The position numbers and the translations under genes were made by a program. The notes under the pieces were generated by a model. It saw only the letters and a program-made list of their open reading frames with translations. It had not been told where the DNA came from and did not search any database. 45,148 nt of DNA from an uncultured Rhodobiaceae bacterium (GTDB lineage: Bacteria > Pseudomonadota > Alphaproteobacteria > Parvibaculales > Parvibaculaceae), in contig CAJXOU010000021.1 of the NCBI GenBank assembly GCA_913057645.1, forward strand, positions 1 to 45,148, given 5' to 3'. Position 1 is the stretch's first letter. Each line of letters begins with the position of its first letter. This document shows positions 15,960 to 40,086 of the stretch, one piece after another.

Positions 15960-15961
15960 GA

Positions 15962-15997
15962 ATTAAACCATCAAGTTAATTAACTTGATGGTTTAAT
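15962..15997. promoter_or_regulatory. Perfect 36-bp palindrome, probable ArsR operator
   Basis: Two uninterrupted 18-bp arms meet at 15979/15980, with every pair matching (core CAAGTTAATTAACTTG). It directly abuts the arsR start codon and is AT-rich, unlike its surroundings. ArsR proteins bind palindromes of this kind, so it is probably the operator/promoter of the ArsR-SRPBCC-VOC operon. The opposite side (15998-16269) leads to the amidohydrolase, so it could affect that gene too. Confidence 0.85.
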
Positions 15998-16269
15998 ACG
16001 ATCGAAGGGGCTGTGAGTCAAGGGAGGAATAGGAAGATCAGGCAGTGGCGGGTATCTGTCACGGCGCTGATCGCGGCGGACATCTTCGCGCCGGCCGTTT
16101 TCGCGAGCGCGATGATGTCGGGCGAGGCATGGGCGAGCACGGCGTATCGATTAACGCTGTGCTCCCTATCGCCGCCACGCTCTCGGTAGGGCCATCCCCC
16201 TGCCGCTTTCATTCCGCGCCATACGCTTCATAGTGAGCAAGCCAGAACGGGCGGCTCGAGGGAGAAGAT
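15998..16269. other. Intergenic region before the amidohydrolase gene
   Basis: About 270 bp between arsR and the amidohydrolase. Apart from the palindrome at its edge I see no gene with convincing codon use. A ribosome site (GGGAGAAG) precedes ATG 16270. The promoter of the amidohydrolase must lie here but no strong -35/-10 pair stands out. Confidence 0.4.
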
Positions 16270-24824: not shown

Positions 24825-24898
24825 TGGGGGATCGTCTAACGGTAGGACAGCGGACTCTGACTCCGCCAGTCTAGGTTCGAATCCTAGTCCCCCAGCCA
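24825..24898 (+). tRNA. tRNA-Gln (anticodon CTG)
   Basis: A complete cloverleaf can be drawn: acceptor TGGGGGA/TCCCCCA, D arm with TCTAACGGTAGGAC, anticodon stem GCGGA/TCCGC around loop CTCTGAC (anticodon CTG), T arm with GGTTCGAATCC, discriminator G and an encoded CCA. The 3' end (24882-24899) is the integration target of the downstream mobile element, and the insertion preserves the tRNA because the element supplies an identical 18-bp end. Confidence 0.97.
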
Positions 24899-24899
24899 A
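24882..24899 (+). repeat. attL core (18 bp), inside tRNA-Gln
   Basis: TCCTAGTCCCCCAGCCAA is identical to the copy at 40069-40086. It covers the T-stem 3' strand, acceptor 3' strand and CCA end of tRNA-Gln, a classic tyrosine-recombinase target. Confidence 0.92.
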
Positions 24900-24948
24900 A
24901 ATCCGTTAAATTATTGATAATAAAAGGCTTTTCGGCACCATTGCCGCC

Positions 24949-24987
24949 TGTGACACGCAGGTGTGTCACACAGCTGTGGCACACAAC
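24949..24987 (+). repeat. Three tandem 13-bp sites at the left end (probable integrase arm sites)
   Basis: Three abutting 13-mers read TGTGACACGCAGG, TGTGTCACACAGC and TGTGGCACACAAC. Two matching 13-mers lie at the other end of the element (39988-40013). Their number, orientation and position 50 bp from the att core fit arm-type binding sites of the tyrosine recombinase or sites for an excisionase. Confidence 0.75.
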
Positions 24988-25034
24988 CCCGCCAGGAAGC
25001 TTGTCCGGCGGCCCCAATATGGGGGCCAAAGCCC

Positions 25035-26936
25035 ATGCCAACCCGCCATCTTCACCTCACCCGTAGAGGCGCGGTTTACTACTTCCGCGCCAGACTTCCC
25101 AGAACGCTCGCCCATGCGCTCAGCCAGGCAACGCTCGCCGTGTCGCTGCGCACCAAGGAGGCCGCCCCTGCCCGCCGCATGGCGCGCCGGTGTTCGGCCG
25201 CACTAGATCGTCTGGAGGCCCTGCTCTTGAACGCTCCGTCTAAATTCCCGCCCTCCAAGCTCCAGCTCCGGCTCGTTCTCGAAGCCATGTTCAACCGCAT
25301 CCTCTCCGAAGGCGAGGCCAAGCGAGACAACGACATGGAAGGCGGGCGCTACAGCGCAGACCGGAAAGCCGCGCCAAACCTGCCCGAGGACGAGTCGGCA
25401 TGGACCGATGAGCAATATTCGGCATTTTGGGATTGGGTGGATTACCACGAAGAACATCCGGAAACCGAAGCCGAGTTCCGGGAGGTCGACGCTCGGGTCA
25501 ACGCAACAAATCGGATTCGCGAAGACTTAGACACGGCGCTTACTGCCTTCGGGCTCTCCTTGGATCGTGACACACCCCAGTATGAGGCGCTTGCGCGCGA
25601 CGCTACGCGCGTTGTGGCAAGGGCCTATGCGATTGAGGCCGAGAGATGGCAGGGGCGTTACACCTCCGATCAGGACATTCCAAGTTTCGTTGCGCAGAAA
25701 TATCCCCTCGATAGCGCGCTGTTGCGCACCTGGACAACGCGCCTCAATCAGGATGAAGCGAAATTCTTGTCGCGCACCATTGACGAAGTCGCGCGCGATT
25801 TCGCGAGCTACCGCCAAAAGCAAGGCATCGCTCCCAAGACGAAATCCGACGACGATCTGGCGCGGCGGTATTTCGTCGATCTTGTCGGGGACAAGCAGAT
25901 GAAGGAGCTGACGCCGGAAGACGGTCAGAAATTCGCGGCCGAATTACTGCGCGTCCCCCGCGACTATGGCAAAGGCCCCTATCGACGAAAAACACCGCGC
26001 CAAGCAATCGCAATGGCAGACCGCATCGAACGGGAGATATCCGCCGCTGGAGAAAGCGACCAGCCGATCTGCGTCGACAGGCACGAGTTTGCCGCCGCTG
26101 AGGCGCGCCGCCGTGTCGAGCGGATGCGGAAGAAGACGGCGAACAAGCATTTGACCTTCTTTACATCGCTCTGGCGCTCGCCACTGGTTCCCCGGAGCCT
26201 TCGCGTCATGAACCCGTTCGAGGGCACACTTTATAAGAAGCGGCTGATCGATACAGAGACGGCGCGCCGTGGCACGCGCGTGCCGTTCACACAAGAGGAG
26301 CTAAGGGCGCTCTTTGCGTCGCCTGTGTGGAATGGGTGCCGCCGTCCCTTCCATCAGGACATCGCGCATCAGAAACGCCTCACGCCCTGGAAATATTGGT
26401 GCCCGCTGATTGCGCTTTTCTCAGGCCTCCGGCGCGAAGAGGTCGCTAGGCTTCGCAAGGATGATTTCGACATCTCGAACGGGGTCTGGCTGTTGCGCAT
26501 CCAGGCGACCTATGACCGCCGCTTAAAATCGAAGGCGGCGATCCGCGAGGTGCCGGTTCACTCCACCTTGATTGCGCTCGGCCTGCGGGAATTTGTCGAC
26601 GGCCTATCGAACAAGGCACCGCTGTTCCCGGATCTGCGGCCGTCCGGCGCCTACAAAGAATATGGCGAGCAGCTTGGCAAGTGGTTCCGGACCTACCGGC
26701 AGGCGCGAGGGCTCTACTCGCCGCATACGGATTTCCACTCGTTCCGGCACAGCTTTGTCAGCGGACTTCGGGATGCTGGCGTCGCCGTCGACCTGATCGC
26801 GCTCCTGGTCGGCCATGAATATGGCGGTGTCACGGCTTCCGTCTATGGCCGTCAGGTTTCAATTCTTCAAAAGAAGGACGCCATCGAGAAGCTCGATCTC
26901 TCGGGGTGCCTCGGAATGCGGTCTGCCGACGCATAA
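25035..26936 (+). CDS. int: Tyrosine recombinase / site-specific integrase (large, DUF6538-type N-terminus)
   Basis: A 633-aa integrase. The N-terminal segment RHLHLTRRGAVYYFRARLPRTL resembles the DUF6538 DNA-binding region of large proteobacterial integrases; a long charged middle section follows. The catalytic domain has Arg in FSGLRREEVARL (~465), the HxxR box in HSFRHSFVSGLRDAG (~570) and the nucleophilic Tyr in TASVYGRQVS (~603). The frame is open back to GTG 24963, but that would run through the three 13-bp repeats. ATG 25035 gives a natural N-terminus and leaves the repeats free, so it is the preferred start. It lies about 135 bp from attL, as is usual for the gene that inserts its own element. 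Confidence 0.93.
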   Translation: MPTRHLHLTRRGAVYYFRARLPRTLAHALSQATLAVSLRTKEAAPARRMARRCSAALDRLEALLLNAPSKFPPSKLQLRLVLEAMFNRILSEGEAKRDNDMEGGRYSADRKAAPNLPEDESAWTDEQYSAFWDWVDYHEEHPETEAEFREVDARVNATNRIREDLDTALTAFGLSLDRDTPQYEALARDATRVVARAYAIEAERWQGRYTSDQDIPSFVAQKYPLDSALLRTWTTRLNQDEAKFLSRTIDEVARDFASYRQKQGIAPKTKSDDDLARRYFVDLVGDKQMKELTPEDGQKFAAELLRVPRDYGKGPYRRKTPRQAIAMADRIEREISAAGESDQPICVDRHEFAAAEARRRVERMRKKTANKHLTFFTSLWRSPLVPRSLRVMNPFEGTLYKKRLIDTETARRGTRVPFTQEELRALFASPVWNGCRRPFHQDIAHQKRLTPWKYWCPLIALFSGLRREEVARLRKDDFDISNGVWLLRIQATYDRRLKSKAAIREVPVHSTLIALGLREFVDGLSNKAPLFPDLRPSGAYKEYGEQLGKWFRTYRQARGLYSPHTDFHSFRHSFVSGLRDAGVAVDLIALLVGHEYGGVTASVYGRQVSILQKKDAIEKLDLSGCLGMRSADA

Positions 26937-26964
26937 AATTCGCTAACCTAGTTCGAAAAAGCAA

Positions 26965-26997
26965 CAGGGCGCCTTGTCATGATGACGCGACGCCCTG
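26965..26997 (+). terminator. Stem-loop after the integrase gene (possible terminator)
   Basis: CAGGGCG pairs perfectly with CGCCCTG across a 19-base loop that itself contains GTCATGATGAC. It begins 28 bp past the integrase stop. There is no clear U-tract (CCACTTTCTT follows), so it may be a transcript-end processing structure and not an intrinsic terminator. Confidence 0.4.
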
Positions 26998-27010
26998 CCA
27001 CTTTCTTGAG

Positions 27011-27430
27011 CCCCGCTGGTGCGGGGAAGGATCAGCCACCCGAAGGTAATCCGATCTTCTGAGTGAGCCGGGAGTGACTGTGGCTCTCGCATCCTGACCG
27101 AAATCAAGTTTGGTCCATCCCCGCTAATGCGGGGGAAATCTCACAGCCTTCTTTGTCTCCTCGTCTTCTGTTTGCCGCCCCTCGCGTTAGAAGAGCGGCT
27201 ATCGCAATCCCCCATGGGGAAGATAAACTGGGTAAACCGTCGGGTTGCCTGATCGGCTCGCCGTAGTTGGTTTTCTCTCAATCCCCCATGGGGAAGATAA
27301 ACGTGTCGCTTGGCCGCCTATTCGGCGGAGAAGTCTCCTGTCGTCTGCTTGATGGCAAACGAATTAGTCGTCTCAATCCCTCTTGGGGCAGATGACTTTT
27401 CTCTTGGCCACCTATCCGGCGGCTAGGTCT
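27011..27430 (+). repeat. Degenerate hairpin-repeat tract between integrase and methyltransferase
   Basis: Five C-run/G-run hairpins begin at 27011, 27119, 27210, 27284 and 27378. Units three and four share 23 of 23 bases over CAATCCCCCATGGGGAAGATAAAC, minus the last base. Unit five keeps TCAATCCCTCTTGGGGCAGAT and, 20 bases further on, GGTCTTCTGTCATCTGC matches AGTCTCCTGTCGTCTGC of unit four. Unit two (GGTCCATCCCCGCTAATGCGGGG) resembles a type I-E CRISPR repeat. Spacing is 74-108 bp, not the regular 61 bp of such arrays, and there are no cas genes. The stretch 26937-27635 has no convincing gene; this tract is its only structure. Confidence 0.6.
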
Positions 27431-27635
27431 TCTGTCATCTGCTGCGGCACCGTGCGCTATGGTGGCCTCAGTTCGGGCCGGATACATAATGCCGGTTTGG
27501 CAGTGTGTGTCGGCCTCAGTGTGGATATGAACCCCACCGTCCAAGATTCAAGCCGATTGGCTTTCGGCTTTAGGACGGCGTTCAGAAGCGTCCGCGGATT
27601 CATGGGAAGTCTCCTTTCTGCTGAGGCGGGCACGC

Positions 27636-28184
27636 TCAATCGGCAGCCAGCTTGTTGAAGCCAAGATCGGCGCCCGGGATGAACTTGCGTTCCTCGGGCA
27701 GGATGAACTTGCGAGCCTTCGAGCGCTCAAAGAACATCTTGCCCCGGATGAGACCGTTCGCCGCCGCCTCTTCGATGGCTTCGACATTGGCCTCACCGAA
27801 GGCGATGAGAACCGAGGCCGCCGGAGCGGAACCGACCTTCTTTTCGTCGGCGTCGACGAAGGCGATGCGTCCTCCAAAGAGGAACAGACCATCGCTGCCT
27901 TCGATTGCCCTGTGAGCCCACTTTGTGTCTGTTCGCGCGAAGGTTAGCGCGATGCCGTTGCGATGCTCGATCGCCTTGTCGATCCAAGGATCTATTTCCG
28001 AGTAAGGAGGATTCATAAAGAAGCGCCCAAACCAAGGCAGCTTCAGCCCGTCATCTTCCTTTGTGTAGCAGTGACGCGCCGTCCAGTGATTCTTGCTCGG
28101 AGCGCAAGGGTCGATATCGAATGGGCGCAGCGCTTCCACCAGCGCACGGGGCGTATACCATTCATCACCGCGAGATTTGGACAT
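27636..28184 (-). CDS. Phage-type DNA N6-adenine methyltransferase (orphan)
   Basis: A 182-aa protein of the phage N-6-adenine-methyltransferase (Dam) family, with the early WYTPRALVEALRPFDIDPCAP segment and the catalytic NPPYSE motif at about residues 58-63 (compare DPPY/NPPY of adenine methylases). Such orphan enzymes modify element DNA, protecting it from host restriction or marking replication. AAAGGAAA lies seven bases before ATG 28184. The nearest neighbour is the P-loop gene 148 bp upstream on the same strand. No restriction partner is adjacent. Target sequence unknown. Confidence 0.85.
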   Translation of the reverse strand: MSKSRGDEWYTPRALVEALRPFDIDPCAPSKNHWTARHCYTKEDDGLKLPWFGRFFMNPPYSEIDPWIDKAIEHRNGIALTFARTDTKWAHRAIEGSDGLFLFGGRIAFVDADEKKVGSAPAASVLIAFGEANVEAIEEAAANGLIRGKMFFERSKARKFILPEERKFIPGADLGFNKLAAD

Positions 28185-28331
28185 TGTCTTTTCCTTTCGA
28201 TATGGACGTCACAACCGACCGCCGGTGTGATGCGTCCATACCGAACATCTGGTTCCAATTTTTCGCGGAGAAGAATAAATCGCCGGATTTTTATTTTTTT
28301 CATTTGGTCTGGATTCGCGAAACAAACGAAC

Positions 28332-29600
28332 TCATATTCGCCCGTTTTTTTCGTCGCCTTCCTCGACCAACTGAAGCAGCGCCTTCGCTTCGCTCGCAGT
28401 GCGTATAGCGGCGATACGCCGACAAAGATCGCGCGGCTTACATTTCCGTCCTTCTGCTTCCACTTCTGTCTTCACCTCTTCAACGCGGCGCACGACGCGC
28501 TCAAGTTCGCCAAGGCCGTAATCATCCAGGAGCTGCCGCGCGTCTTCCAGATGAAGAGCCACCATGCGAAGCGCCCATGCCATATCCCGCGCCGTCAGTT
28601 CGCCGCCGCTGTCACCTAGAAGGATGTGATAGACGGCCGCATAGCGGACCGCCGAGAACATCAAACGACGGTAAAACGATACTGGCAGCGCATCGCCTTC
28701 AGGCATCATCGCCCGGAAGGCCGATTTGAATGTGCCGATTGCCTCCTCTCCGACTCTATAGATGGGATGAAGCGGGATTTGTTCAACAGAGGCCCACGCG
28801 CTTCGCATGGCATCGTGATTCTCGCGCAGATCGTAGAGCGGGAAGTCGACCGCACGGCGCAGCGGATCAGCTGGCGCAATGATAAAATTGAATCTTTGCG
28901 CGAAACCATCCACTAAGGATTCCGGGCCGACGCAATCCTTGAAAGTCTCCAACACCGTCGAACCCAAGATCGTCAGCGCCGGGTTGTCGATGGAAATCGC
29001 ATCCATCTTCGTCCGCCGCGATATCTGCTGCCCGTCATAAAGACGCAGCAGATAGTCGCGCAGCTCGGCCATATGCGTTTGCTGGTCCAACGATCTGAGG
29101 AACTGCCCGAACTCGTCCCTTATCCAGGTCGCATTGTTGTGTGCGGCGAGGTCCTGAACGAATTTCGCGGCCGATGCCGGGTCCGGGAAAAGGTTCTTCT
29201 GACCCGCAATATCGAGAACGCGCCGCGTCGCGAAGGTCTTGCCTGCGCCGCTCGGTGCGAGAACGACTGTCCAGAGGCTGGGCTTGACCTTCTGGCCGTG
29301 GAGATCGACGAGGCATCCCGCCTCTAGAAGCCGTCCCGATATCAAGGTCATAACCGCCACAAGAGGAAGCTCAAGCGGGATATCGGTCCTCTGCCGGAAG
29401 GCCTCCGTCACCACCTCCGCAAAGGAGCCCGGCGGCACGGCGCTTTGACCGCGCCAGGCAGAAGACTGGGTCTTTCGAACGAGCAGCATGGCGCGGATCG
29501 TGTCTCGCGCCTCACGGCTGCGGCTTGCGGCCTCGATCATGCTCTCGACACCGGAGAAAGGAAGAGTGAGCTGCCTTGGGCTCTTGCGGTTTAGTTTCAT
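28332..29600 (-). CDS. DUF3987-type P-loop protein, probable replication/helicase-like ATPase
   Basis: A 422-aa protein with a Walker A motif PSGAGKT (116-122) preceded by a helical region with LELPLVAVMTLISGRLLEAG, and a later DEFGQFLRSL that may serve as Walker B. This matches the DUF3987/YfjI group found in prophages and integrative elements, which is thought to act in replication (primase-helicase like), but the function is not proven. It lies between the relaxase and the methylase. The start ATG 29600 has no strong ribosome site. Possible iterons lie just upstream. Confidence 0.75.
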   Translation of the reverse strand: MKLNRKSPRQLTLPFSGVESMIEAASRSREARDTIRAMLLVRKTQSSAWRGQSAVPPGSFAEVVTEAFRQRTDIPLELPLVAVMTLISGRLLEAGCLVDLHGQKVKPSLWTVVLAPSGAGKTFATRRVLDIAGQKNLFPDPASAAKFVQDLAAHNNATWIRDEFGQFLRSLDQQTHMAELRDYLLRLYDGQQISRRTKMDAISIDNPALTILGSTVLETFKDCVGPESLVDGFAQRFNFIIAPADPLRRAVDFPLYDLRENHDAMRSAWASVEQIPLHPIYRVGEEAIGTFKSAFRAMMPEGDALPVSFYRRLMFSAVRYAAVYHILLGDSGGELTARDMAWALRMVALHLEDARQLLDDYGLGELERVVRRVEEVKTEVEAEGRKCKPRDLCRRIAAIRTASEAKALLQLVEEGDEKNGRI

Positions 29601-29654
29601 GGCGGGTTCTTGTCTGTCGTGGTTGCGCTTGTCTCCGACCTAGGCACCACGCAG

Positions 29655-29710
29655 CGACAGACAAATCCGATCTTTTGGGGGACCCCCTCATTGACACTGA
29701 CAAATCCCAG
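29655..29710. repeat. Short iteron-like repeats and a GGGGGACCCCC palindrome between relaxase and P-loop genes
   Basis: CAGACAAATCC (29658-29668) and CTGACAAATCC (29697-29707) are direct repeats 39 bp apart, flanking the 11-bp palindrome GGGGGACCCCC at 29677-29687. TGACA recurs further on (29754-29767). The 175 bp between the two genes could be a replication origin or promoter region. No -35/-10 pair stands out. Confidence 0.4.
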
Positions 29711-29775
29711 AAATCACAAACCGCAGCGGCACTTAGCGCCTTAAAGCGGGATTGACAGGGCAGTGACAAAAGGCG

Positions 29776-30762
29776 CTATCGCTCCTCACCGCCGCGCGAT
29801 CGCGCATTCTCGGCGATCTCGCTCGTTGCCTCGTCGACCATCTCGTCGACCAAGCGCTTCCCCTTCCGCACCGCTTTCGCAAGGCCCGCCGTTCTTACCG
29901 GCGCGTTAAATTTGGGCTTCGGTTTCTTCGCATGTTCCACGTGTAACGCGGTTTTAAGAACCGGCTCCTTCCGGGGGTGGCCTGTCTTGTCGCCATCTCC
30001 TGTCTTCCGGCGCTCCGCTATCAATGTGCCCGCATCCTTGCGCCGCCGCCGCTTCCTCCGGTTGCGGTCTCCGGCGGCGGTCTTGCGCCCGCGCCGCTCG
30101 GCGGAAGAGCGCGAGGGCCCAAGATGCTCCTCTCCCTCGATCAAGTCTTCCGGCAGGCCTTCAGCCTCAAGGCGCCGCTTCCATGAGCGCATGTCGACCG
30201 GTTGCGCCTTGCCCGCTTGCTCAAGGGCACGCCCGGCAAGCTCGCCCCATGCCGCCCGCCATGCCTCGATAGCGGCCGGGCCGGTCTTTCGATCATCCAG
30301 TTCGCGGGCCTTGTCGCCCAAAGCATCGCCTGTACTGCGGCGGCCGGTGATGACGACATGCGCATGGATATTCCGTTCATCGCCCGCCGCGTCGGGCGCA
30401 TGGATGACCCAGGCGCAGGCGACCCCGTGCTGTTCATTGAGATGACGGCACCAATCTTCAACCAACGCCGCTGATTGCGCGATTGTCAGCTCATGCGGCA
30501 CGGCAATGATAGCGCTGCGGCCTTCGCAGGCATCGCCACGCTTCTCGGCAAGGGACATCGCCTGTCCGAGGCTCTCGGCGTCGCCGTTCCAGCCGGCGAT
30601 GCCGGATGCGAGAAGGTCGCCGTCGCCCTTCTTCCGATAATCATGTGTCGTGGCGATGCGGGGGTCATGGATGCGGCTGCGCATGACATAGGCCATGCGG
30701 GCGCAGGCCGTTGCGCCGGTGCCCCGCGAGATTTTTGAGACCCTCAAAAAGCCGATTGCCAT
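29776..30762 (-). CDS. mobA: MobA/MobL-family relaxase (N-terminal nickase)
   Basis: A 328-aa relaxase. The N-terminal AxxAY-type segment (ACARMAY, Tyr25) carries the candidate nicking tyrosine. The metal-binding triad is visible as HAPD (His121) and NIHAHVV (His133, His135). The remainder is basic and low-complexity (KRRRRK), suited to DNA binding. It would nick the oriT at 30808-30840 and pilot the strand into a helper's secretion channel. GGAGG sits upstream of ATG 30762. The size is short for this family, so primase or helicase domains are absent. The gene start contains an 8-bp inverted repeat. Confidence 0.88.
   Translation of the reverse strand: MAIGFLRVSKISRGTGATACARMAYVMRSRIHDPRIATTHDYRKKGDGDLLASGIAGWNGDAESLGQAMSLAEKRGDACEGRSAIIAVPHELTIAQSAALVEDWCRHLNEQHGVACAWVIHAPDAAGDERNIHAHVVITGRRSTGDALGDKARELDDRKTGPAAIEAWRAAWGELAGRALEQAGKAQPVDMRSWKRRLEAEGLPEDLIEGEEHLGPSRSSAERRGRKTAAGDRNRRKRRRRKDAGTLIAERRKTGDGDKTGHPRKEPVLKTALHVEHAKKPKPKFNAPVRTAGLAKAVRKGKRLVDEMVDEATSEIAENARSRGGEER
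30732..30750. promoter_or_regulatory. Tight hairpin in the first codons of mobA
   Basis: TTTTTGAG and CTCAAAAA form a perfect 8-bp stem with a 3-base loop, within the first ten codons of mobA. In RNA it would lie just after the start codon and could occlude ribosomes, or it could be a repressor site for autoregulation. Both are inference. Confidence 0.4.
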
Positions 30763-30807
30763 TTCTCTTGCGCCTCCGGCGGGGTGTCGGGGCCTGCCCT
30801 GACCGCT

Positions 30808-30840
30808 GCGTTCCCCTCGGGGAATGCGTAATTGCGCCCT
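30808..30840 (+). other. Predicted origin of transfer (oriT) with nic site, RSF1010 type
   Basis: A stem-loop GCGTTCCCC / GGGGAATGC with a 2-base loop (30808-30827, one G-T pair) is followed two bases later by TAATTGCGCCCT (30829-30840). This is the layout and core of the RSF1010/R1162-type oriT (hairpin then TAAGTGCGCCCT or TAAATGCGCCCT), which MobA nicks near the end of the motif. It lies between mobA and the divergent mobilization genes, exactly where such an oriT belongs. Confidence 0.85.
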
Positions 30841-30925
30841 TCGGGTATTCCGCTGCCTCGCTTGCCTTCCTCAATCTGGTTCATAGGTCCACGGAAGGCT
30901 CACACAAGGAACGGGAGAGACAATC

Positions 30926-31261
30926 ATGATTGGCAAGTCTGTTGAGGGGTGGCACTGGCAGTGGAAAGGAAAATTCCTGCGCCTCTGGTCGCCAAGTGGA
31001 CGCGTCGCCGCCGTCATCGGCTTCAACCTAAAGCTCGGGTGGATGTGGTCGCTCCCGAAGTCGCTCGGCCACAGGGCGAAGGATGCGGAAACGGCCGTGC
31101 GTGAAGTTCTTGATTCCCTCGAAATGGAACCAAGGGTTCGCGCCGAACTACTCTCGATTGCGCTCCACGAGTTTGCGCGCATCGCAAAACTGGAGGCAGA
31201 GAATGATGCCGACTTCAGCACCCCCGAAGGCAACGAAACCAGCGAAGCCGAAATCGCCTGA
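30926..31261 (+). CDS. Unknown small protein downstream of oriT
   Basis: A 111-aa acidic protein, preceded by a good ribosome site (GGGAGAGA) before ATG 30926. It contains two Trp-rich segments near the start (GWHWQWKGKFLRLW) and a helical C-terminal half with many Glu. I do not recognise a family. It is the first plus-strand gene after oriT and overlaps the next frame by 59 bp, so it probably belongs to the mobilization module. Confidence 0.6.
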   Translation: MIGKSVEGWHWQWKGKFLRLWSPSGRVAAVIGFNLKLGWMWSLPKSLGHRAKDAETAVREVLDSLEMEPRVRAELLSIALHEFARIAKLEAENDADFSTPEGNETSEAEIA

Positions 31262-31505
31262 GGAGCGCCGCGCCGCGCTCGAAGCGCGGCGCGCAAAGCT
31301 TGACCTCCGCATTCGTGCTCTAGCCACCGAAGAGCGCGAACGGCGGCGCCGTGAGGACACCCGAGCGAAGATCGTCCTTGGCGGGGCGCTGCTCGCCTTC
31401 TTCCGCAAGGAACCTTTCGCGGCGAAGGCCTTCATGCCCCGGCTCCTGCCCCTGATCGCGGAACGGGACCGCGAAATGGTTGTGAGGCTTGCCGACCAGG
31501 CCTAG
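31203..31505 (+). CDS. MobC/TraD-like relaxosome accessory protein
   Basis: About 100 aa from ATG 31203 (GGAGG lies seven bases upstream; ATG 31206 is the alternative). An Ala/Pro/Lys-rich start leads into an arginine-rich amphipathic helix (RRAALEARRAKLDLRIRALA, TEERERRRREDTRAKIVLGG) of the type seen in TraD/MobC accessory proteins that help the relaxase at oriT. The position near mobA and oriT supports this. Homology is inferred from character, not from a hit. It overlaps the end of the preceding gene in another frame. Confidence 0.6.
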   Translation: MMPTSAPPKATKPAKPKSPEERRAALEARRAKLDLRIRALATEERERRRREDTRAKIVLGGALLAFFRKEPFAAKAFMPRLLPLIAERDREMVVRLADQA

Positions 31506-31599
31506 CGATTGCTGGCTGGAGGTTCGTTCGAGCCGCTCCGGCAGCGTATCATGTGGCTCCAGGGCTGATTCCTTGACAGGGACGGTCGTATCGCGTCAC

Positions 31600-31627
31600 T
31601 TGACACCATACGGCCCACGGGTGTAAA
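31600..31627 (+). promoter_or_regulatory. higBA promoter/operator
   Basis: TTGACACC (31600-31607) and GGTGTAAA (31620-31627) are arms of an inverted repeat with one mismatch. TTGACA is a perfect -35 and TAAATT (31624-31629) a fair -10 at an 18-bp spacing, ending one base before the higB ATG. A promoter here would give an almost leaderless transcript, so a second TTGACA at 31573 may be the real -35. Repression by HigA is expected. Confidence 0.55.
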
Positions 31628-31630
31628 TTC

Positions 31631-31921
31631 ATGAAAATACGGAACGTGATCCACAAGGGCCTGCGCCGGTTTATAGAGACCGATGACGCTGCCGGATTAC
31701 AGCCCGCTGTTGTGCCGAAGCTTCGGCGGATCGTCTCCTTCCTCCAGGATATGGAGCGTGAGGAGGAGCTGCGGACGGTTCCGAGCTGGAAGGCACATCA
31801 GCTGACCGGCGACCGCAAGGGGACATGGAGTCTCTTTGTCACGAAGAACTGGCGCCTCACATTCCGGATAGACCAGACAGAGATCGAAATCGTCGATCTC
31901 GATTACGAGGACTACCACTAG
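31631..31921 (+). CDS. higB: HigB-type toxin (RelE superfamily mRNA interferase)
   Basis: A 96-aa protein with the HigB signature: MKIRNVIHKGLRRFIETDDA at the start, the central WKAHQLTGDRKGTWSLFVTKNWRLTFR and the acidic end DLDYEDYH. HigB cleaves mRNA on the ribosome. Toxin precedes antitoxin by nine bases, the reverse of most TA operons and typical for higBA. It probably stabilises the integrated element. Confidence 0.93.
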   Translation: MKIRNVIHKGLRRFIETDDAAGLQPAVVPKLRRIVSFLQDMEREEELRTVPSWKAHQLTGDRKGTWSLFVTKNWRLTFRIDQTEIEIVDLDYEDYH

Positions 31922-31930
31922 GAGAGCGAA

Positions 31931-32281
31931 ATGGGCACGACGCAAGGCATTCGCATGAAGAACCCCGCCCATCCCGGCGGCTTCGTCAAACATGAGATCA
32001 TCGAGCCTCTGGGCCTGTCCGTAACAGGCGCGGCAGAAGTGCTCGGTGTCACGCGGGCGGCACTCTCGGCGTTGCTGAACGAGCGGGCGCATCTGTCGCC
32101 CGAAATGGCGCTCCGCCTGGAGAAGGCATTCGGCGTGTCGATGGACACGCTCATGCGCATGCAGAACAGTTTCGATATTGCCCAAACGCGCAAGCGCGCG
32201 GGTGATATCAAAGTGAAGCCCTATCAGGCTCGATCCACCGGGCCCGATGACGGGCATACGCGCCGCTCGAATGCGACGTGA
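31931..32281 (+). CDS. higA: HigA-type antitoxin (XRE helix-turn-helix)
   Basis: A 116-aa protein of the HigA addiction-antidote family: PAHPGGFVKHEIIEPLGLS followed by the helix-turn-helix VTGAAEVLGVTRAALSALLN and the helix PEMALRLEKAFGVSMDTLMRM. It would neutralise HigB and bind the inverted repeat upstream of higB. The C-terminal tail is longer and more basic than the minimal family form. Confidence 0.92.
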   Translation: MGTTQGIRMKNPAHPGGFVKHEIIEPLGLSVTGAAEVLGVTRAALSALLNERAHLSPEMALRLEKAFGVSMDTLMRMQNSFDIAQTRKRAGDIKVKPYQARSTGPDDGHTRRSNAT

Positions 32282-32453
32282 CCTGAAGAGCCTCTGACCG
32301 GCACGGCCGGTATATTGCTGTGGGCGACGTCAGCGCATCTTCAAGAAAAGCTTATCAAGCTTGCGGCGCGCTATGCGACGGCTCGGGCGGCCTCCTTGGG
32401 TGCCACTTTGCCTTCATTGCCGAAGAAGGTGTTCTATCGGCATTGATGCCCAG

Positions 32454-32507
32454 TTCTGACATTGCTCTGCCGCTATGTCAGAAACTCGTGACTTTCCGAC
32501 ATAGCGG
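32454..32507. repeat. Overlapping inverted repeats in a 327-bp gap after higA
   Basis: TTCTGACAT (32454-32462) pairs with ATGTCAGAA (32475-32483), and CCGCTATGTC (32470-32479) pairs with GACATAGCGG (32498-32507). The two palindromes share the middle arm, so they are mutually exclusive. The surrounding gap 32282-32608 has no convincing gene; a 103-codon frame across it lacks a ribosome site and family character. It could be a decayed insertion or recombinase site. Confidence 0.6.
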
Positions 32508-32608
32508 TCGGCTCCGTCTGAGGCGCGCGAGCACACCGTTCGACTTCGACGATCAGGGGCAGGCCCAGCCTATATTTGGTGAGAGCCTCCTTCTTGCCGT
32601 GCCAATCT

Positions 32609-33004
32609 TCAAAGGTACATCGGGTTCCTAAGAATAAGACGCTTTCCGTCCTCCAAAGATGGAGATCCTTCGCTAATCGGAAAGTGATAGGTCGCCCTTT
32701 CCTGTTCGGTCAAGGCCCGCCAAGTCATCGCACGTAACTCCATCCGCTCATGCCCAGACAAAAGAGGGAAGTGGTCTTGCTTTAGTGAGCAGAGCGCTCC
32801 CTCCTTCGCGTCTTTCAATTTCCTGTTGGCGCCAAGGGAAACCAGTTTGAAATGCAGGGCACAAAGAGGAAATTCGATGGAGATGGGATGGTCGGCGATC
32901 ACGCCTTGTAGATTTTGGAATACGGCCCAGTAGTGGGAAGTTGCCGCCTTTCCTTTGAAAATCAGAATATTCGTGTTTTTGAATGGCCCCAGAATTTTGC
33001 GCAT
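32609..33004 (-). CDS. Unknown protein in a low-GC patch of the element
   Basis: About 131 aa from ATG 33004 (GGAGC lies eight bases upstream; the frame opens at 33040). It is more AT-rich than the rest of the window and its codons differ from the host. The sequence has no signal peptide or transmembrane helix: MRKILGPFKNTNILIFKGKA then mixed alpha/beta-like stretches such as PISIEFPLCALHFKLVSLG. I do not recognise the family. Its position between HigBA and ArdC is typical of accessory or defence cargo. Confidence 0.6.
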   Translation of the reverse strand: MRKILGPFKNTNILIFKGKAATSHYWAVFQNLQGVIADHPISIEFPLCALHFKLVSLGANRKLKDAKEGALCSLKQDHFPLLSGHERMELRAMTWRALTEQERATYHFPISEGSPSLEDGKRLILRNPMYL

Positions 33005-33172
33005 GTGCTTGCTCCGTGTTTGCGGGAGAATTCCCGTCACGGGCGAATATGGGTCCGTCTGTTCGTGCCCATGCGGTGATCGCCGTCTTTTTTGACGGAA
33101 TTTTTGGAAGCATTAATTTTCGATTTCCAACACATGGCGCGACCGGCTTCTGTTCGAGAGAGCGCCGCGCTT

Positions 33173-34051
33173 TCACGCGGCCCTCTCACATATGGTGCCA
33201 ATGCCGCTGAGATAGTCGGCGGCACGCTGCGCTTGCGAGGCCGCTGTGAAGATCGCGCGGGTGTCGCCCTTCAGCACCTTCAGCCATGCGCCGATATAGT
33301 CGGCATGGTCAGCGCGCGGTTCGGGCGAAAGACCAAGATCCGCACAGATGAACGCGGCGCCGATTTCGGCAACAAGCTCCTCCATCGCATAACTGGCATC
33401 GCCAAACCGATTGCCCTCGAAGGAGCGGTCCAAGCGATTCTGTCCGCCGGTCCAGTGCGTCGCCTCATGAGCAAGGACGGCGTAATAGGCCTCGGCCCCG
33501 TGAAACGCCTCGAAGGGCGGCATCTGAATAAAGTCGGCCTTGGGGCTGTAATAAGCCCGCTCGCCGCCGTGCCTGATATCGGCGCCGGTCGCGGCAAAGA
33601 AGGCCTCGGCATGCTCGATGCGGGCTTCCGGATTAAGCGGGAGATTGCGGGCGGGAAGGATGCCGTCCGGCAGGTCCTCGATCTGCTCGACGTTGAAGAC
33701 GGTGTAGCTTTTCAGGAAGGGGATCTTCTTCTCGGTCTCCTCGCCGCTTTCGCCGGTATCCTTGGCGATAAAGACATTGGAATAGACAACCTGGCTTCCC
33801 TTCTCACCCTTGCGGACATGCCCGCCCAGGGCTGTAGCCTGCTTGTAGGTCATCCAGATCGGGGCGGTGAAGCCTCGTTCCGCGGCGGCGGCCCAAAGCA
33901 ACAGGGTGTTGATCCCGCGATAGGGTTCGCCATTGGCACGAAGCGGCCGAGGAATGCCGTTGCCTCCATTCCAGCACATCGACGAGGGGCGGATACCGGA
34001 TTCCAGATCGGCAACGATCTTCGCGGTGATGGTTTCGTAGAGCTTTTTCAT
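33173..34051 (-). CDS. ArdC-like antirestriction protein with zinc-metallopeptidase motif
   Basis: A 292-aa protein with the ArdC N-terminal single-strand-DNA-binding domain (MCWNGGNGIPRPLRANGEPY, RGINTLLLW, GGHVRKGEKGSQVVY) and a C-terminal zincin with HEATH at 195-199 and a following Glu-rich helix (EELVAEIGAAF). ArdC proteins protect incoming plasmid DNA from restriction. ATG 34051 has AAGGAAGG upstream; the longer frame to 34174 has no support. Carrying ArdC together with a type III restriction system is plausible: entry protection plus resident defence. Confidence 0.88.
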   Translation of the reverse strand: MKKLYETITAKIVADLESGIRPSSMCWNGGNGIPRPLRANGEPYRGINTLLLWAAAAERGFTAPIWMTYKQATALGGHVRKGEKGSQVVYSNVFIAKDTGESGEETEKKIPFLKSYTVFNVEQIEDLPDGILPARNLPLNPEARIEHAEAFFAATGADIRHGGERAYYSPKADFIQMPPFEAFHGAEAYYAVLAHEATHWTGGQNRLDRSFEGNRFGDASYAMEELVAEIGAAFICADLGLSPEPRADHADYIGAWLKVLKGDTRAIFTAASQAQRAADYLSGIGTICERAA

Positions 34052-34131
34052 CTGAAGCCTTCCTTTAGCTATGGGTTGCGCACGCAACCCGACTAGCCAC
34101 GCGGCAATGAGCGGGGGATTGCTGTCAGGAC

Positions 34132-34190
34132 CGGAAATCCGGAGAAGGCGCGGGCCGGAGCGAAGCGACAACACGGTCTCCGGATTTCCG
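34132..34190. repeat. Long stem-loop upstream of the ardC-like gene
   Basis: CGGAAATCCGGAGA (34132-34145) pairs perfectly with TCTCCGGATTTCCG (34177-34190) across a 31-base purine-rich loop. It sits between the unknown gene at 34229 and ardC. In the minus-strand transcript it would be in the ardC leader. It could regulate ardC, or act on single-stranded entering DNA, as with known ssi-type promoters; this is speculation. Confidence 0.7.
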
Positions 34191-34228
34191 CGCGGGAACC
34201 GCGCCCGGTCTTGACGGCATGGGGGGCG

Positions 34229-34693
34229 TCAGCCCCTCTTCACTTTCTGGGAGATTGGGACGGCGGGAGAGACAGAGCCCGTTCGCGCCTCGCTTTCCTG
34301 CGCGGCGTCCGGTGCCTCCAGCGGCGTGTTCGCGCCGCTCGGCCGCTTCGGGGCCTTGTGCTTTGAAAGGAGCGTCTGAAGCTCTCCCGGTCCGTCGACA
34401 TCCTTGGCCGCCCCGATCAGGCGCACCAGGCGGCGAACCGCTTTCAGATCTGCGCCTTCAAGATTGGCGACATGGACCATCGTGCGCCCATGACTTAGCT
34501 CCGAGAATGGATACGCTCTTGAAGGCGTCCTGACTCGGCAGCAAGAAAGATGTTCTGCGAGCGAGAAGCGCTTTGCCTTGTCAAAATTACCGTCGGGCCA
34601 CTCTTCCCGATTCTTGCGGCGAATATATCGCGCCGCGGCCTCATACTCGGCGGGCGTGTAGCCTGCCGCGATGGCATCGTCTTTCGTAAGCAT
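34229..34693 (-). CDS. Unknown element protein
   Basis: About 154 aa from ATG 34693, chosen because TGAGGT lies seven bases upstream; ATG 34705 is also in frame. The N-terminus is helical (DDAIAAGYTPAEYEAAARYI, RRKNREEWPDGNFDKAKRFS) and the C-terminus is Pro/Ser-rich and probably disordered. No known motif. It is the gene upstream of ardC and probably co-transcribed with it. Confidence 0.6.
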   Translation of the reverse strand: MLTKDDAIAAGYTPAEYEAAARYIRRKNREEWPDGNFDKAKRFSLAEHLSCCRVRTPSRAYPFSELSHGRTMVHVANLEGADLKAVRRLVRLIGAAKDVDGPGELQTLLSKHKAPKRPSGANTPLEAPDAAQESEARTGSVSPAVPISQKVKRG

Positions 34694-34702
34694 GGAGAAC
34701 CT

Positions 34703-34747
34703 CATTCGAACCGCGCAAGCCGCACCGTGCGGTTGCTGTTCCGAATG
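34703..34747 (-). promoter_or_regulatory. Hairpin in the leader of the unknown gene at 34229
   Basis: CATTCGAA / TTCCGAATG close an imperfect stem, inside which GCAAGCCGCAC pairs with GTGCGGTTGC (one bulged G, one-base loop). It ends nine bases before the preferred start codon, so it may sit in the transcript leader and affect translation, or mark a dyad operator. Confidence 0.5.
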
Positions 34748-35060
34748 TGGTCTGGTTGAATTTCAAGCGAAGCGAATTGGCCGGATTACTCGCTGGATGT
34801 TCAGTTCGCTTTAAGAAGTGGTGGGCAGAGGCGCGTCCGGGTGATTCTCGCCATCAATTCTAGGGCGGTTTCCCGAATCTCGGGTATCTTAGCCATATAG
34901 AATACGAAAAGATGAAGTTGTGAATTTCTGTCGCCCCCCGCCCGACCGGGAGCGAAAGAAGCTCTGACCCAATAGGGGCTGAAATTAGGCCCATGTATGA
35001 CATTAGGGCCCATATACAAAGCAATGGCCTAGATTTTATTCCAAGAGGTAGGGCGTTTCG
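34748..35060. other. Intergenic region before mod, with an 18-bp-period direct repeat
   Basis: The 313 bp between the leader hairpin and mod hold no gene I can support. TTAGGCCCATGTA (34985-34997) and TTAGGGCCCATATA (35003-35016) are near-identical with an 18-bp period and lie about 45 bp before the mod start. They may form the mod promoter/operator. AGAGG about eleven bases before GTG 35061 is a fair ribosome site. Confidence 0.5.
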
Positions 35061-37208
35061 GTGTCACGTTTGACTGATTTGATTGCGCAGGCAAAAGCAA
35101 AAGATGCCGAGCTTGGACGCGAGTTGGAACGCGAGTTCAAAGTTCTGTCAGCACGTCGTTCTTTCGGTCTCAATTTCGAGCGTCACCGCCCCGAGAGTGT
35201 CGAACTTCCCGGGCGCCCCGTTCGGAAAGGTGACAAGGTACGTGTGCTGCCGCCGCGCGGATCAACGGTCAAGGGCGATCAGCGCCTTTGGAAGGTTCTC
35301 GGCTTCGAGCGGAAAGTCGGCGAGCGGCTCGCCAAGCTGGACTTAATCGGCGTCGCTGAAACGGAAACCAAGTCTGTCGCGGTCGACGACCTCGTCGTTG
35401 TGGCAGAGTTTCGCGACTATATCTATCCGGGGCTTGTGAGCACGGGGAAAGTAGAGCGCGGCGGAGACAAGCCCTTTCACACGGTGATTAACGGCGAGAA
35501 CTTCCATGTATTGGAAGCGCTGACGTTCACGCATCGTGGCAAGATCGACGCCATTTATATCGACCCTCCCTACAACACCGGGGCGCGCGACTGGAAATAC
35601 AACAACGACTACGTCGAGGCGGAAGACCTGTATCGACATTCGAAATGGCTGGCCTTCATGGAGCGGCGACTGAAAGTCGTCAAGGAGTTGTTGAACCCCG
35701 AGCGAAGTGTCCTGATCGTGACCATCGATGAAAAGGAATACTTGAGGCTTGGCCTTCTTCTAGAACAGGTTTTTGAGGAAGCCACCATTCAAATGGTTTC
35801 ATCCGTAATAAATCCTAAAGGGGCCTCCAGAGGCGTTGGTTTTAGGCGAACTGACGAGTACTTGTTCTTCGTCATGTTTGGAAGCGCAACCCCGGCTCGT
35901 TTGGAATTGGGATCTGAGTGGTCAAGCTCTGCCTCAAGCAATTCAACAGAAAGGCTAGAAGAATCGGCCGCACCTTCAGCTCCCGAATGGACGTCCATGA
36001 TGCGGCGGGGTTCCCATGCGGCAAGAAGAGAGAGGCCGGGACTGTTTTTCCCAATTTACGCGGCGGTCGATGGATCGAAAATTGTGGAAGTTGGCGAGAC
36101 CGTTCCTTTAGACGCTCCACTACCTCAAGATAAGCCGGGGCTTGTAACGATTTGGCCCCTTCGATCCGACGGTAGTCAAGGAGTATGGCAAGTCGGACCT
36201 GAGGAACTCCGAAAGAGGATCAAACAAGGACGCGTTAGGCTTGGTCGCGCAACTTCATATGGATTTGTGGTGAACTACCTTCCCGATGGTGCTTACGCAG
36301 CGGTCATGTCGGACCGTTTTGAAATCAAAGGATTTGCTGATGACGGATCGATAATTGCAGAAGGGCGGCGTGACACCCGCAGGATAGCGCCCTCGCAATG
36401 GAAAATTGCTGCTCATAATGCGTCAGAGCACGGAACAGCTTTGTTGCGAAACTTGTTACCCCGGCGCACTTTCCCATTTCCCAAATCTCTTTACGCCGTA
36501 GAAGACGCCCTTCGCTTTTTTGTAAAAGAAAAATCTGACGCCGTCATTCTCGACTTTTTTTCCGGTTCAGGCACTACTGCCCATGCCGTCATGCGACTGA
36601 ACCGCCAGGATGGCGGCCGCCGCCGCTGTATCTCCGTCACCAATAATGAAGTAGCAGCCGACGAACAGGCCGCTCTGCGCAAGGCGGGGCTTCGCCCCGG
36701 TGATGCGGACTGGGAGAAGCTGGGCATCTGCGACTACATCACAAAGCCACGCATCGATGCCGCGATTACAGGCAAGACACCGGACGGGAGAGACATCGAG
36801 GGCGATTACAAGTTTACCGATGAATTCCCGATGGCAGAAGGCTTCGAGGAAAACGCGGAATTCTTCACGCTCACATACGAGACGCCAGTGACGGTCAGCC
36901 ACAACCGCGCCTTCGGGCGAATCGCGCCGCTACTCTGGATGCGCGCAGGCAGCGAAGGCGGTCGAATTGACGCCCTTCCCGCCAAGGGTTGGGAAGTTGT
37001 CGACACTTATGGACTTCTCACGGACCTGGATAAGGCCGCGCACTTTTGTAAGGCGGTGGAGGCGAAGGGTAGTACCCGGATTGCCTATATCGTGACGGAT
37101 GATGACCGGCGCTTTCAGGCGGTGGCGCGCCGACTTCCCGATTCCGTCGAGCCAGTACGTCTTTACGAGACGTATCTGACCAACTTCCGATTTTCGATGG
37201 GGCGATGA
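35061..37208 (+). CDS. mod: Type III restriction-modification methyltransferase (Mod)
   Basis: A 715-aa beta-class N6-adenine methyltransferase: the catalytic DPPYNTG (from Asp168) comes before the SAM motif DFFSGSGTT (from Asp498), the order of type III Mod proteins. The long stretch between them (about 230-490) holds the target-recognition domain. Its DNA (about 35780-36540) is visibly more AT-rich than both flanks, which is the usual sign of domain exchange. The start is GTG 35061. Together with Res it modifies and cuts unmethylated sites; the recognised sequence is unknown. Three bases separate it from res. Confidence 0.95.
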   Translation: MSRLTDLIAQAKAKDAELGRELEREFKVLSARRSFGLNFERHRPESVELPGRPVRKGDKVRVLPPRGSTVKGDQRLWKVLGFERKVGERLAKLDLIGVAETETKSVAVDDLVVVAEFRDYIYPGLVSTGKVERGGDKPFHTVINGENFHVLEALTFTHRGKIDAIYIDPPYNTGARDWKYNNDYVEAEDLYRHSKWLAFMERRLKVVKELLNPERSVLIVTIDEKEYLRLGLLLEQVFEEATIQMVSSVINPKGASRGVGFRRTDEYLFFVMFGSATPARLELGSEWSSSASSNSTERLEESAAPSAPEWTSMMRRGSHAARRERPGLFFPIYAAVDGSKIVEVGETVPLDAPLPQDKPGLVTIWPLRSDGSQGVWQVGPEELRKRIKQGRVRLGRATSYGFVVNYLPDGAYAAVMSDRFEIKGFADDGSIIAEGRRDTRRIAPSQWKIAAHNASEHGTALLRNLLPRRTFPFPKSLYAVEDALRFFVKEKSDAVILDFFSGSGTTAHAVMRLNRQDGGRRRCISVTNNEVAADEQAALRKAGLRPGDADWEKLGICDYITKPRIDAAITGKTPDGRDIEGDYKFTDEFPMAEGFEENAEFFTLTYETPVTVSHNRAFGRIAPLLWMRAGSEGGRIDALPAKGWEVVDTYGLLTDLDKAAHFCKAVEAKGSTRIAYIVTDDDRRFQAVARRLPDSVEPVRLYETYLTNFRFSMGR

Positions 37209-37211
37209 GGC

Positions 37212-39806: not shown

Positions 39807-40068
39807 CGCGATCAAGACAACGATTGGCGTAGAGACCTGACGAGACCTGACCGCACAGTACTATCGGGAATTAAGTGTCAATAAAGCTTCAGGCTCTGGT
39901 CGGCACCCCAGCTGACCTTTCGTCAGATGAAACTGAAATTCACCGGCCGCTGCTTTCTTCTGCGCGCCGCCTACCGGAGGCTTTGAGTGTGACACACAGG
40001 TATGCTACACAGTCAAAATCGCCCTGTTAAGCCTTTGTTATTGTTGATTTTTTTGACGGTCGAGGGGG
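39807..40068. other. Right-end non-coding region of the element
   Basis: From the res stop to attR there is no convincing gene. The only structure is the pair of 13-bp sites at 39988-40013. Host sequence without a gene continues from 40087 to 40195. Confidence 0.6.
39988..40013 (+). repeat. Two tandem 13-bp sites at the right end
   Basis: TGTGACACACAGG and TATGCTACACAGT abut each other. The first differs from the first left-end unit at one base. They sit 55 bp from the attR core and match the left-end array in orientation, as expected of integrase arm sites. Confidence 0.75.
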
Positions 40069-40086
40069 TCCTAGTCCCCCAGCCAA
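40069..40086 (+). repeat. attR core (18 bp)
   Basis: An exact copy of TCCTAGTCCCCCAGCCAA from the tRNA-Gln 3' end at 24882-24899. It marks the right limit of the mobile element; beyond it the chromosome resumes. Confidence 0.92.

Follow-up and report, generated by a model that had tools for sequence, protein, structure and literature searches.

What could a cluster of C/G-run hairpins contribute to the mobile element that carries it? The cluster lies in the window, as we call the whole 45,148-nt stretch of DNA analysed here, which comes from contig C21 of genome G000 (3.75 Mb). A preliminary description had placed it at 27011-27430, as five hairpins in a gene-free stretch of 700 bp, and had read it on the plus strand. 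We found that the tract is longer, ends in a terminator, holds further units and makes most sense on the minus strand, and we consider it quite possible that it is a set of mimics of CRISPR repeats that work in the way of RNA anti-CRISPRs (Racrs), here clustered and of multiple subtypes.

The tract and the element around it

The tract is carried by an integrative mobilizable element of Parvibaculum, 15.2 kb in size (24882-40086) and located at tRNA-Gln, with these features:

24882-24899, plus strand: att site, 18-bp direct repeat TCCTAGTCCCCCAGCCAA, 3' end of tRNA-Gln
24963-26936, plus strand: tyrosine integrase with a DUF6538 domain (PF20172, PF00589)
27603-27457, minus strand: possible small gene of 48 aa with a Shine-Dalgarno AGGAG, between Dam and the tract
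27636-28184, minus strand: DNA N-6-adenine methyltransferase Dam (PF05869)
28332-29600, minus strand: DUF3987 protein, candidate replication protein of the element
29776-30762, minus strand: MobA/MobL relaxase
40069-40086: att site, second copy of the 18-bp repeat TCCTAGTCCCCCAGCCAA

The element further encodes a HigB-like toxin and its HTH partner, as well as two items concerned with restriction: an ArdC-type anti-restriction protein and a type III restriction-modification pair. The tract sits between the genes for the integrase and Dam, which converge on it; Dam is perhaps an anti-restriction gene, and we presume that it shares one transcript with the tract. The surrounding 700 bp are not as free of genes as described before, since the 48-codon frame falls inside them. 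This frame is open in genome G009 too, with nine changed codons, five of them silent and four residue-changing; its comparison with PADLOC gave no match, and its status as a coding gene is uncertain. Regarding the DUF3987 protein, which may be a replication protein, 25 of the 26 plasmid records with a relative were 3.5-4.3-kb plasmids from Enterobacterales, and in the one such plasmid examined the neighbouring genes were MobC and one other hypothetical gene.

The C runs of the five C/G-run hairpins begin at 27011, 27119, 27209, 27283 and 27378. Their spacing of 108, 90, 74 and 95 bp agrees with the 74-108 bp first given, and units three to five do share longer sequence, a common 27-nt core at 100, 96 and 74%. 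The hairpins are real, but both their number and the limits of the tract had been set too low: it extends over 26956-27442, holds 7-8 units in about 440 bp, and includes two C units (27306-27333 and 27400-27427) and a terminator (26956-27003) in addition to the original five. Its parts are given below, with scores out of 28 against the reference repeat and p values from a null in which the hairpin letters are fixed.

26956-27003, minus strand: T, intrinsic terminator, long GC hairpin then TTTTT
27004-27031, minus strand: A1, I-E-like, degenerate tail (20/28, p 0.12)
27112-27139, minus strand: A2, I-E-like ATTTCCCCCGCATTAGCGGGGATGGACC, 3' tail intact (23/28, p 0.0018)
27201-27228, minus strand: B1, hairpin with ATTGCGAT tail
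27237-27259, minus strand: C1 (tentative), degenerate GCC-GATCA-GGC hairpin at the expected C position, found by eye
27275-27302, minus strand: B2, hairpin with ATTGAGAG tail
27306-27333, minus strand: C2, I-F-like CTTCTCCGCCGAATAGGCGGCCAAGCGA, with 5-bp stem, 5-nt loop and 8-nt tail (20/28, p 0.00024)
27370-27397, minus strand: B3, hairpin with ATTGAGAC tail
27400-27427, minus strand: C3, I-F-like CCTAGCCGCCGGATAGGTGGCCAAGAGA (18/28, p 0.0019)

On the minus strand the order is thus C3 B3 C2 B2 (C1) B1 A2 A1 T, and an outer stem (27388-27396 with 27434-27442) encloses C3. The terminator reads GGCAGGGCGTCGCG...GGCGCCCTGTTGCTTTTT on this strand; its counterpart in genome G001 keeps TTGCTTTT, while that of G009 keeps the stem and has lost the U-run.

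Because the units are palindromes, structure is present on both strands over 26956-27442. We scanned 26881-27750 in 120-nt windows (26 positions on both strands), and 19 of these 52 windows had folding z-scores that rank in the bottom 5% when all 752 windows from the whole 45 kb are compared. Other places in the 45 kb fold more strongly than the tract: the strongest signals are at 32401-32520 (z -6.98 on the minus and -5.92 on the plus strand) and 15961-16080 (-4.44 and -6.80, respectively). As for the strand, the evidence from base pairs is split: a changed pair in C3 remains G-U on the minus strand only, and a changed pair in A1 of G009 is lost on the minus strand and remains G-U on the plus strand only. 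A simple scan of both strands over 26850-27700 found no sigma-70-like promoter (0.2 expected by chance), and a terminator scan of the same type found none on either strand, also missing the minus-strand terminator that is visible in the fold. The minus strand is the informative one, and the tract is a genuine, conserved and probably strand-specific hairpin cassette. The preliminary description had overlooked this strand and its terminator, had not noticed that some units are I-F-like, and had missed the association with the Dam module; it had also offered a structured RNA as an option, and this option is supported.

Likeness of the units to CRISPR repeats

One unit had been likened to a type I-E CRISPR repeat, and this likeness holds for A2. 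We took I-E repeats from ten arrays beside I-E Cas2 genes (10 of the 14 Cas2 loci had an array) and scanned five of the ten (L100, L101, L102, L093 and L095) along the two strands of 165.8 kb of sequence. For L100, L101 and L102, the top places were A2, its copy in G009 and unit A of G001 (20-23/28): A2 scored 22-23/28 and G001 A 20-22/28, against 18-19 for the best place outside the tracts. With L093 and L095, A2 came first at 21/28, and the best outside places reached 20 and 18. The closest repeat, that of L102 (GGCTCCCCCGCATACGCGGGGATGGACC), has 23 of 28 letters in common with A2, and the final 13 are identical. The I-E score was reached in 0/800 dinucleotide shuffles of the window and 0/800 of G001, as compared to 23/800 and 38/800 in the opposite orientation. 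When the hairpin letters were fixed, p was 0.0018 for A2, 0.010 for G001 A, 0.12 for A1 and 0.29 for G001 A'.

As a control, we searched the 40 genomes of the order for the pattern CCCCGCNNNNGCGGGGAT and found 15 sites, compared to two for the reversed control. Three of the sites are the tracts and four lie in arrays of G027 and G031; the remaining eight score 25, 23, 22, 20, 19, 19, 18 and 17 against I-E repeats. With three of these eight at 22-25, the 23 of A2 is not unique. The 22-scoring site (L090) lies within open frames, and the 23-scoring one (L082) overlaps a 63-codon ORF. In Rfam, no CRISPR family matched any A unit of the window, and the DR28 match on G001 A lies on the strand opposite to the minus-sense reading. 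Judged by sequence, the link to CRISPR repeats is strong for A2 and weak for A1 and G001 A'. Compared with a type I-E array, the tract has a single good unit, no 61-bp periodicity and no cas genes found.

The C units have a 5-nt flank, a 5-bp stem, a 5-nt loop and an 8-nt tail, which is the geometry of type I-F repeats, and three of the five have CCAAGCGA or CCAAGAGA where I-F has CTAAGAAA, with a stem richer in GC. In a scan of the 165.8 kb with an I-F repeat, C2 was the top place at 20/28, an outside place reached 19, and C3 and G001 C' reached 18. The score was met in 2/800 shuffles of the window, 1/800 of G009 (not independent of the former) and 150/800 of G001; with the hairpin letters fixed, the five scored C units gave p values of 0.00024, 0.0019, 0.007, 0.027 and 0.027. 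Below the Rfam threshold, C2 matched CRISPR-DR4, which we take to stand for type I-F, and so did G001 C in the same sense; these matches reach 13-19 bits, where the gathering score is 35. A 4.7-kb neighbour gave three Rfam matches, none of them to a CRISPR family. For the C units, the link to CRISPR repeats is moderate.

The B units are CCC-loop-GGG hairpins with a tail, which is ATTGAGAC, ATTGAGAG and ATTGCGAT in the window and twice ATTGCTAT in G001, where the tail of B' (AATGAGAT) falls under the cut-off. Their ATTG tail resembles the reference tails ATTGAAAC (Rfam CRISPR-DR2 reversed) and ATTGCGAC (a Thermus repeat), both of which we assume to stand for I-B/III-like systems. The alignment score is marginal, being reached in 31/800 shuffles of the window and 56/800 of G001. 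Sub-threshold Rfam matches put B1 and B2 on CRISPR-DR2, with the raw matches on the opposite strand until DR2 is reversed, and the DR8 match on B3 lies on the strand opposite to the minus-sense reading. For the B units, the link to CRISPR repeats is weak. The I-F and B references were picked with the units already in view. At the gathering score, Rfam found only the tRNA in the window, and all matches to CRISPR families were far below it.

We then asked how often the three kinds occur jointly, with cut-offs of at least 21/28 for I-E, at least 18/28 for I-F and at least 6/8 for a CCC...GGG hairpin with tail, set after the units were known. The set was a non-random one of 230 sequences with many overlapping copies (3,016,284 strand-bases). 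All three kinds fell within 450 nt on one strand in 22 rows, every one of them a copy of the three tracts, and single matches numbered 235 for I-E, 98 for I-F and 143 for B-like, tract copies and true arrays included, against which the rarity of the joint occurrence can be judged. Throughout the 45-kb window, B-like matches occurred in the tract alone and on the minus strand alone. Among viral contigs, 15 had the I-E-type pattern, four of them in several copies, and none of these 45 sites had an I-F or B partner.

Relatives of the tract and CRISPR systems of the hosts

The DNA of the tract matched four of 146 genomes: its own, G009, G001 and G021, the last over merely 33 nt on the Dam side. 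The tract is known from three Parvibaculum elements, two of which are close kin. The G009 tract is 92% and 90% identical to that of the window over two aligned pieces, is without one 94-bp C-B unit, differs by an indel of 1 bp in the stretch that separates unit two from unit three, and departs from the window just past the terminator on the integrase side. The G001 tract has diverged much further. Its terminator and A1 are best kept (82% over 70 bp, E 2.5e-13), and a second match over a C unit is at chance level. Its Dam is 55% identical to that of the window, its relaxase belongs to another family (Mob_Pre), and by eye its element borders on a tRNA fragment. Still, the order 3' of Dam is kept, as (C,B)x3, A, A, terminator, with C'' and B' weaker than the other units of their kinds in G001 (L015 coordinates):

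11194: C''
11237: B''
11275: C'
11314: B'
11347: C
11391: B
11410: A
11468: A'
11501: terminator

The preliminary description had reckoned with mere relics in case sibling islands showed no conservation and there was no transcript; on the first of these two points, the tract is present in three elements, with the order kept in the diverged one. A sibling element in G022 has DUF3987, and on inspection its integrase and MobA look the same as those of the window; it has neither a Dam match nor the tract. The genome is 84% complete, but the relevant stretch of the element is assembled. As the tract is present with Dam and absent from this element with the same integrase, its presence follows that of the Dam module, not that of the integrase. 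In the place of that module, G022 has a different gene pair (L033 12246-14360), encoding 410 aa without a Pfam match and 158 aa in which a Crp-like HTH is weakly matched. No tract stands beside the more distant Dam relatives of G010, G015 and G028, and in G012 Dam is at a contig end that puts the adjoining region out of view.

Among 72,556 plasmid records, the tract gave one match, to a 35-nt stretch outside the hairpins, and the hairpin tract itself none at E 0.01; phages gave no match at E 0.01, nor did the G001 tract match plasmids at E 0.1. In viral contigs, neither Dam nor DUF3987 nor the pattern of the terminator was found, and the integrase had one relative at 33%. A loose C-then-B pattern hit at least 120 viral loci, and none of the matches listed held a cassette; the strict C pattern hit two loci and the strict A pattern one, all without a cassette.

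With respect to the hosts, type I-E Cse1 was found in none of the 40 genomes of the order. Cas1 was present in 11 of the 40 and absent from G000, G009 and G001. Among 385 genomes of the class, 14 had I-E Cas2 and one had I-F Csy4. Of the cas families searched, the window's own genome had neither Cas1, Cse1, I-E Cas2 nor Csy4. Repeats stood at 11 of the 12 Cas1 loci of the order and were of other kinds than the tract units, presumably I-C and II-C; those of the genus, which we read as II-C and I-C, did not match the tract. We rejected an ordinary CRISPR array for the tract, given three kinds of repeat, irregular spacing (74, 95 and 108 between units of the same kind in the window; 58, 72 and 153 in G001) and those four genes absent from G000. 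Two sister-genus genomes without Cse1 hold I-E-like repeats GGCTCCCCCGCACACGCGGGGATAGACC: G027 a short array of three intact repeats and a degenerate one (L039 1497-1690, G027:C3:214508-214701), and G031 two repeats at a contig end (L038 1-90, G031:C372).

Possible mimics of CRISPR repeats and other explanations

In the study of Camara-Wilpert et al. (2023; PMC10651486), a type I-F Racr is a repeat mimic that binds Cas6f and Cas7f and gives rise to an aberrant complex. Nine Racr candidates covering both classes were inhibitory there, the systems tested including I-E, I-C, I-F and V-A, and one racr was co-transcribed with an upstream acr gene. About 90% of the prophages and viruses bearing solitary repeat units (SRUs) infect CRISPR-bearing hosts, and 83% of the SRUs with such hosts match the host subtype. 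The search of that study retained only repeats without other (partial) repeats nearby, and clusters like this tract would therefore be left out.

If the tract worked in the same manner, a minus-strand transcript would run through DUF3987, Dam, the possible 48-aa peptide, the mimic cassette and the terminator, with the tract as its 3' part. In the cassette, two units would stand for type I-E (A), two or three for type I-F (C) and three, with ATTG tails, for I-B/III-like systems (B). Once the element had entered a host that has class 1 CRISPR immunity, Cas6-type proteins of this host would bind the mimics and cleave them. Cas7 subunits would then assemble on RNA that is not a guide, the crRNA-loaded complexes left would be too few to destroy the element, and the element would benefit. 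Mimics of several subtypes would fit an element that meets varied hosts, and the ArdC-type protein and type III restriction system that it also carries speak for this reading. More tentatively, the tract could be the first multi-subtype RNA anti-CRISPR cassette, with I-E, I-F and I-B/III-like mimics lined up in order in the tail of a methylase operon and able to jam whichever class 1 system the next host has. Racrs described so far consist of one repeat each, in most cases directed at the subtype of the host itself. Mobile elements would, if our reading is true, bear pre-emptive RNA decoys against systems that their present host does not have; a class of tracts now discarded as odd arrays would deserve attention, and one RNA that blocks several class 1 systems would become available.

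The tract has in common with Racrs and SRUs (PMC10651486) a CRISPR-repeat-like hairpin with a 3' tail, an intergenic position in a mobile element and no linked cas genes, and differs in its 7-8 units of three kinds, its own terminator and a host order without I-E Cse1. In sequence and structure together, A2 and C2 are similar to repeats, and B, A1 and A' weakly so. The mobile setting (18-bp att repeats, integrase, relaxase) and the lack of linked cas genes (none of the families searched in G000) also agree. The match to the host subtype, usual for SRUs and not obligatory, does not (Cse1 0/40, Csy4 1/385, none in G000). Since its units are not solitary, we do not file the tract as an SRU, only as possibly working like one. 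Viral CRISPR mini-arrays are likewise short repeat-bearing tracts in mobile elements; as reviewed in PMC11656645, their repeats are identical to those of the host and flank spacers, whereas the tract has heterogeneous repeats, irregular spacing and no protospacer found. Among the open-licence PMC papers listed, we found no report of multi-subtype Racr clusters, and a phrase search of the main text of PMC10651486 found none of several wordings for multiple, tandem or clustered Racrs or SRUs.

One could argue that the tract is a structured ncRNA, or that it forms a long 3' UTR to the DUF3987-Dam operon, and that it serves a different purpose (stabilizing RNA, antisense control or acting as a sponge for a protein), its CRISPR likeness being a convergence of short GC hairpins. 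We hold this to be rather unlikely, although the strong terminator, the conserved unit order and the folding signal suit it, as do the rarity of Cse1 and Csy4 in the order and class and the weak scores of B, A1 and A'. Such convergence does not readily give three different 3' tails like those of known repeat classes, all in one orientation, nor scores of A2 and C2 that exceed both nulls, and known Rfam families offer no explanation.

It is improbable that the tract is a replication or single-strand origin whose hairpins act in ssDNA beside the DUF3987 protein, which would then be the replication protein. G022 has DUF3987 without the tract, the tails and the terminator suit RNA on one strand, and PLSDB calls all 26 DUF3987 plasmids non-mobilizable; on the other side stand the small size of 25 of these plasmids and a DUF3987-Dam-tract block common to elements whose relaxases vary (MobA_MobL, Mob_Pre). 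The chance that the element acquired one or more CRISPR arrays that have since decayed is smaller still: I-E-like arrays do occur in sister genomes without Cse1, but three repeat kinds in an order conserved across two diverged elements, irregular spacing and a hairpin tract unmatched in phages and plasmids (E 0.01) speak against it. Tandem small peptides, decayed or active, are hardly credible, as the open 24-codon frame at 27352-27426 and the common (S/A)IP(H/L)G(E/A)D reading are present as first described, but the 1-bp and 94-bp indels of G009 break the frame, and the G001 B units read AIPHGAI, AIPQRGR and SFLTGIR in the motif phase, with the motif altered in one and lost in the other two.

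Apart from the tracts, two lone units were seen. The control site that scores 25 against I-E repeats (L086 about 1501, G031:C226:3953-3970) is a unit GGCTCCCCCGCTCACGCGGGGATGGATC between short ORFs with a terminator-like hairpin directly after it, and is a candidate solitary repeat unit. A viral contig (L229 4595-4614, IMGVR_UViG_3300007755_000011) bears a lone hairpin ATTTCCCCCGCACGAGCGGGGATTGACA that is very similar to the A units.
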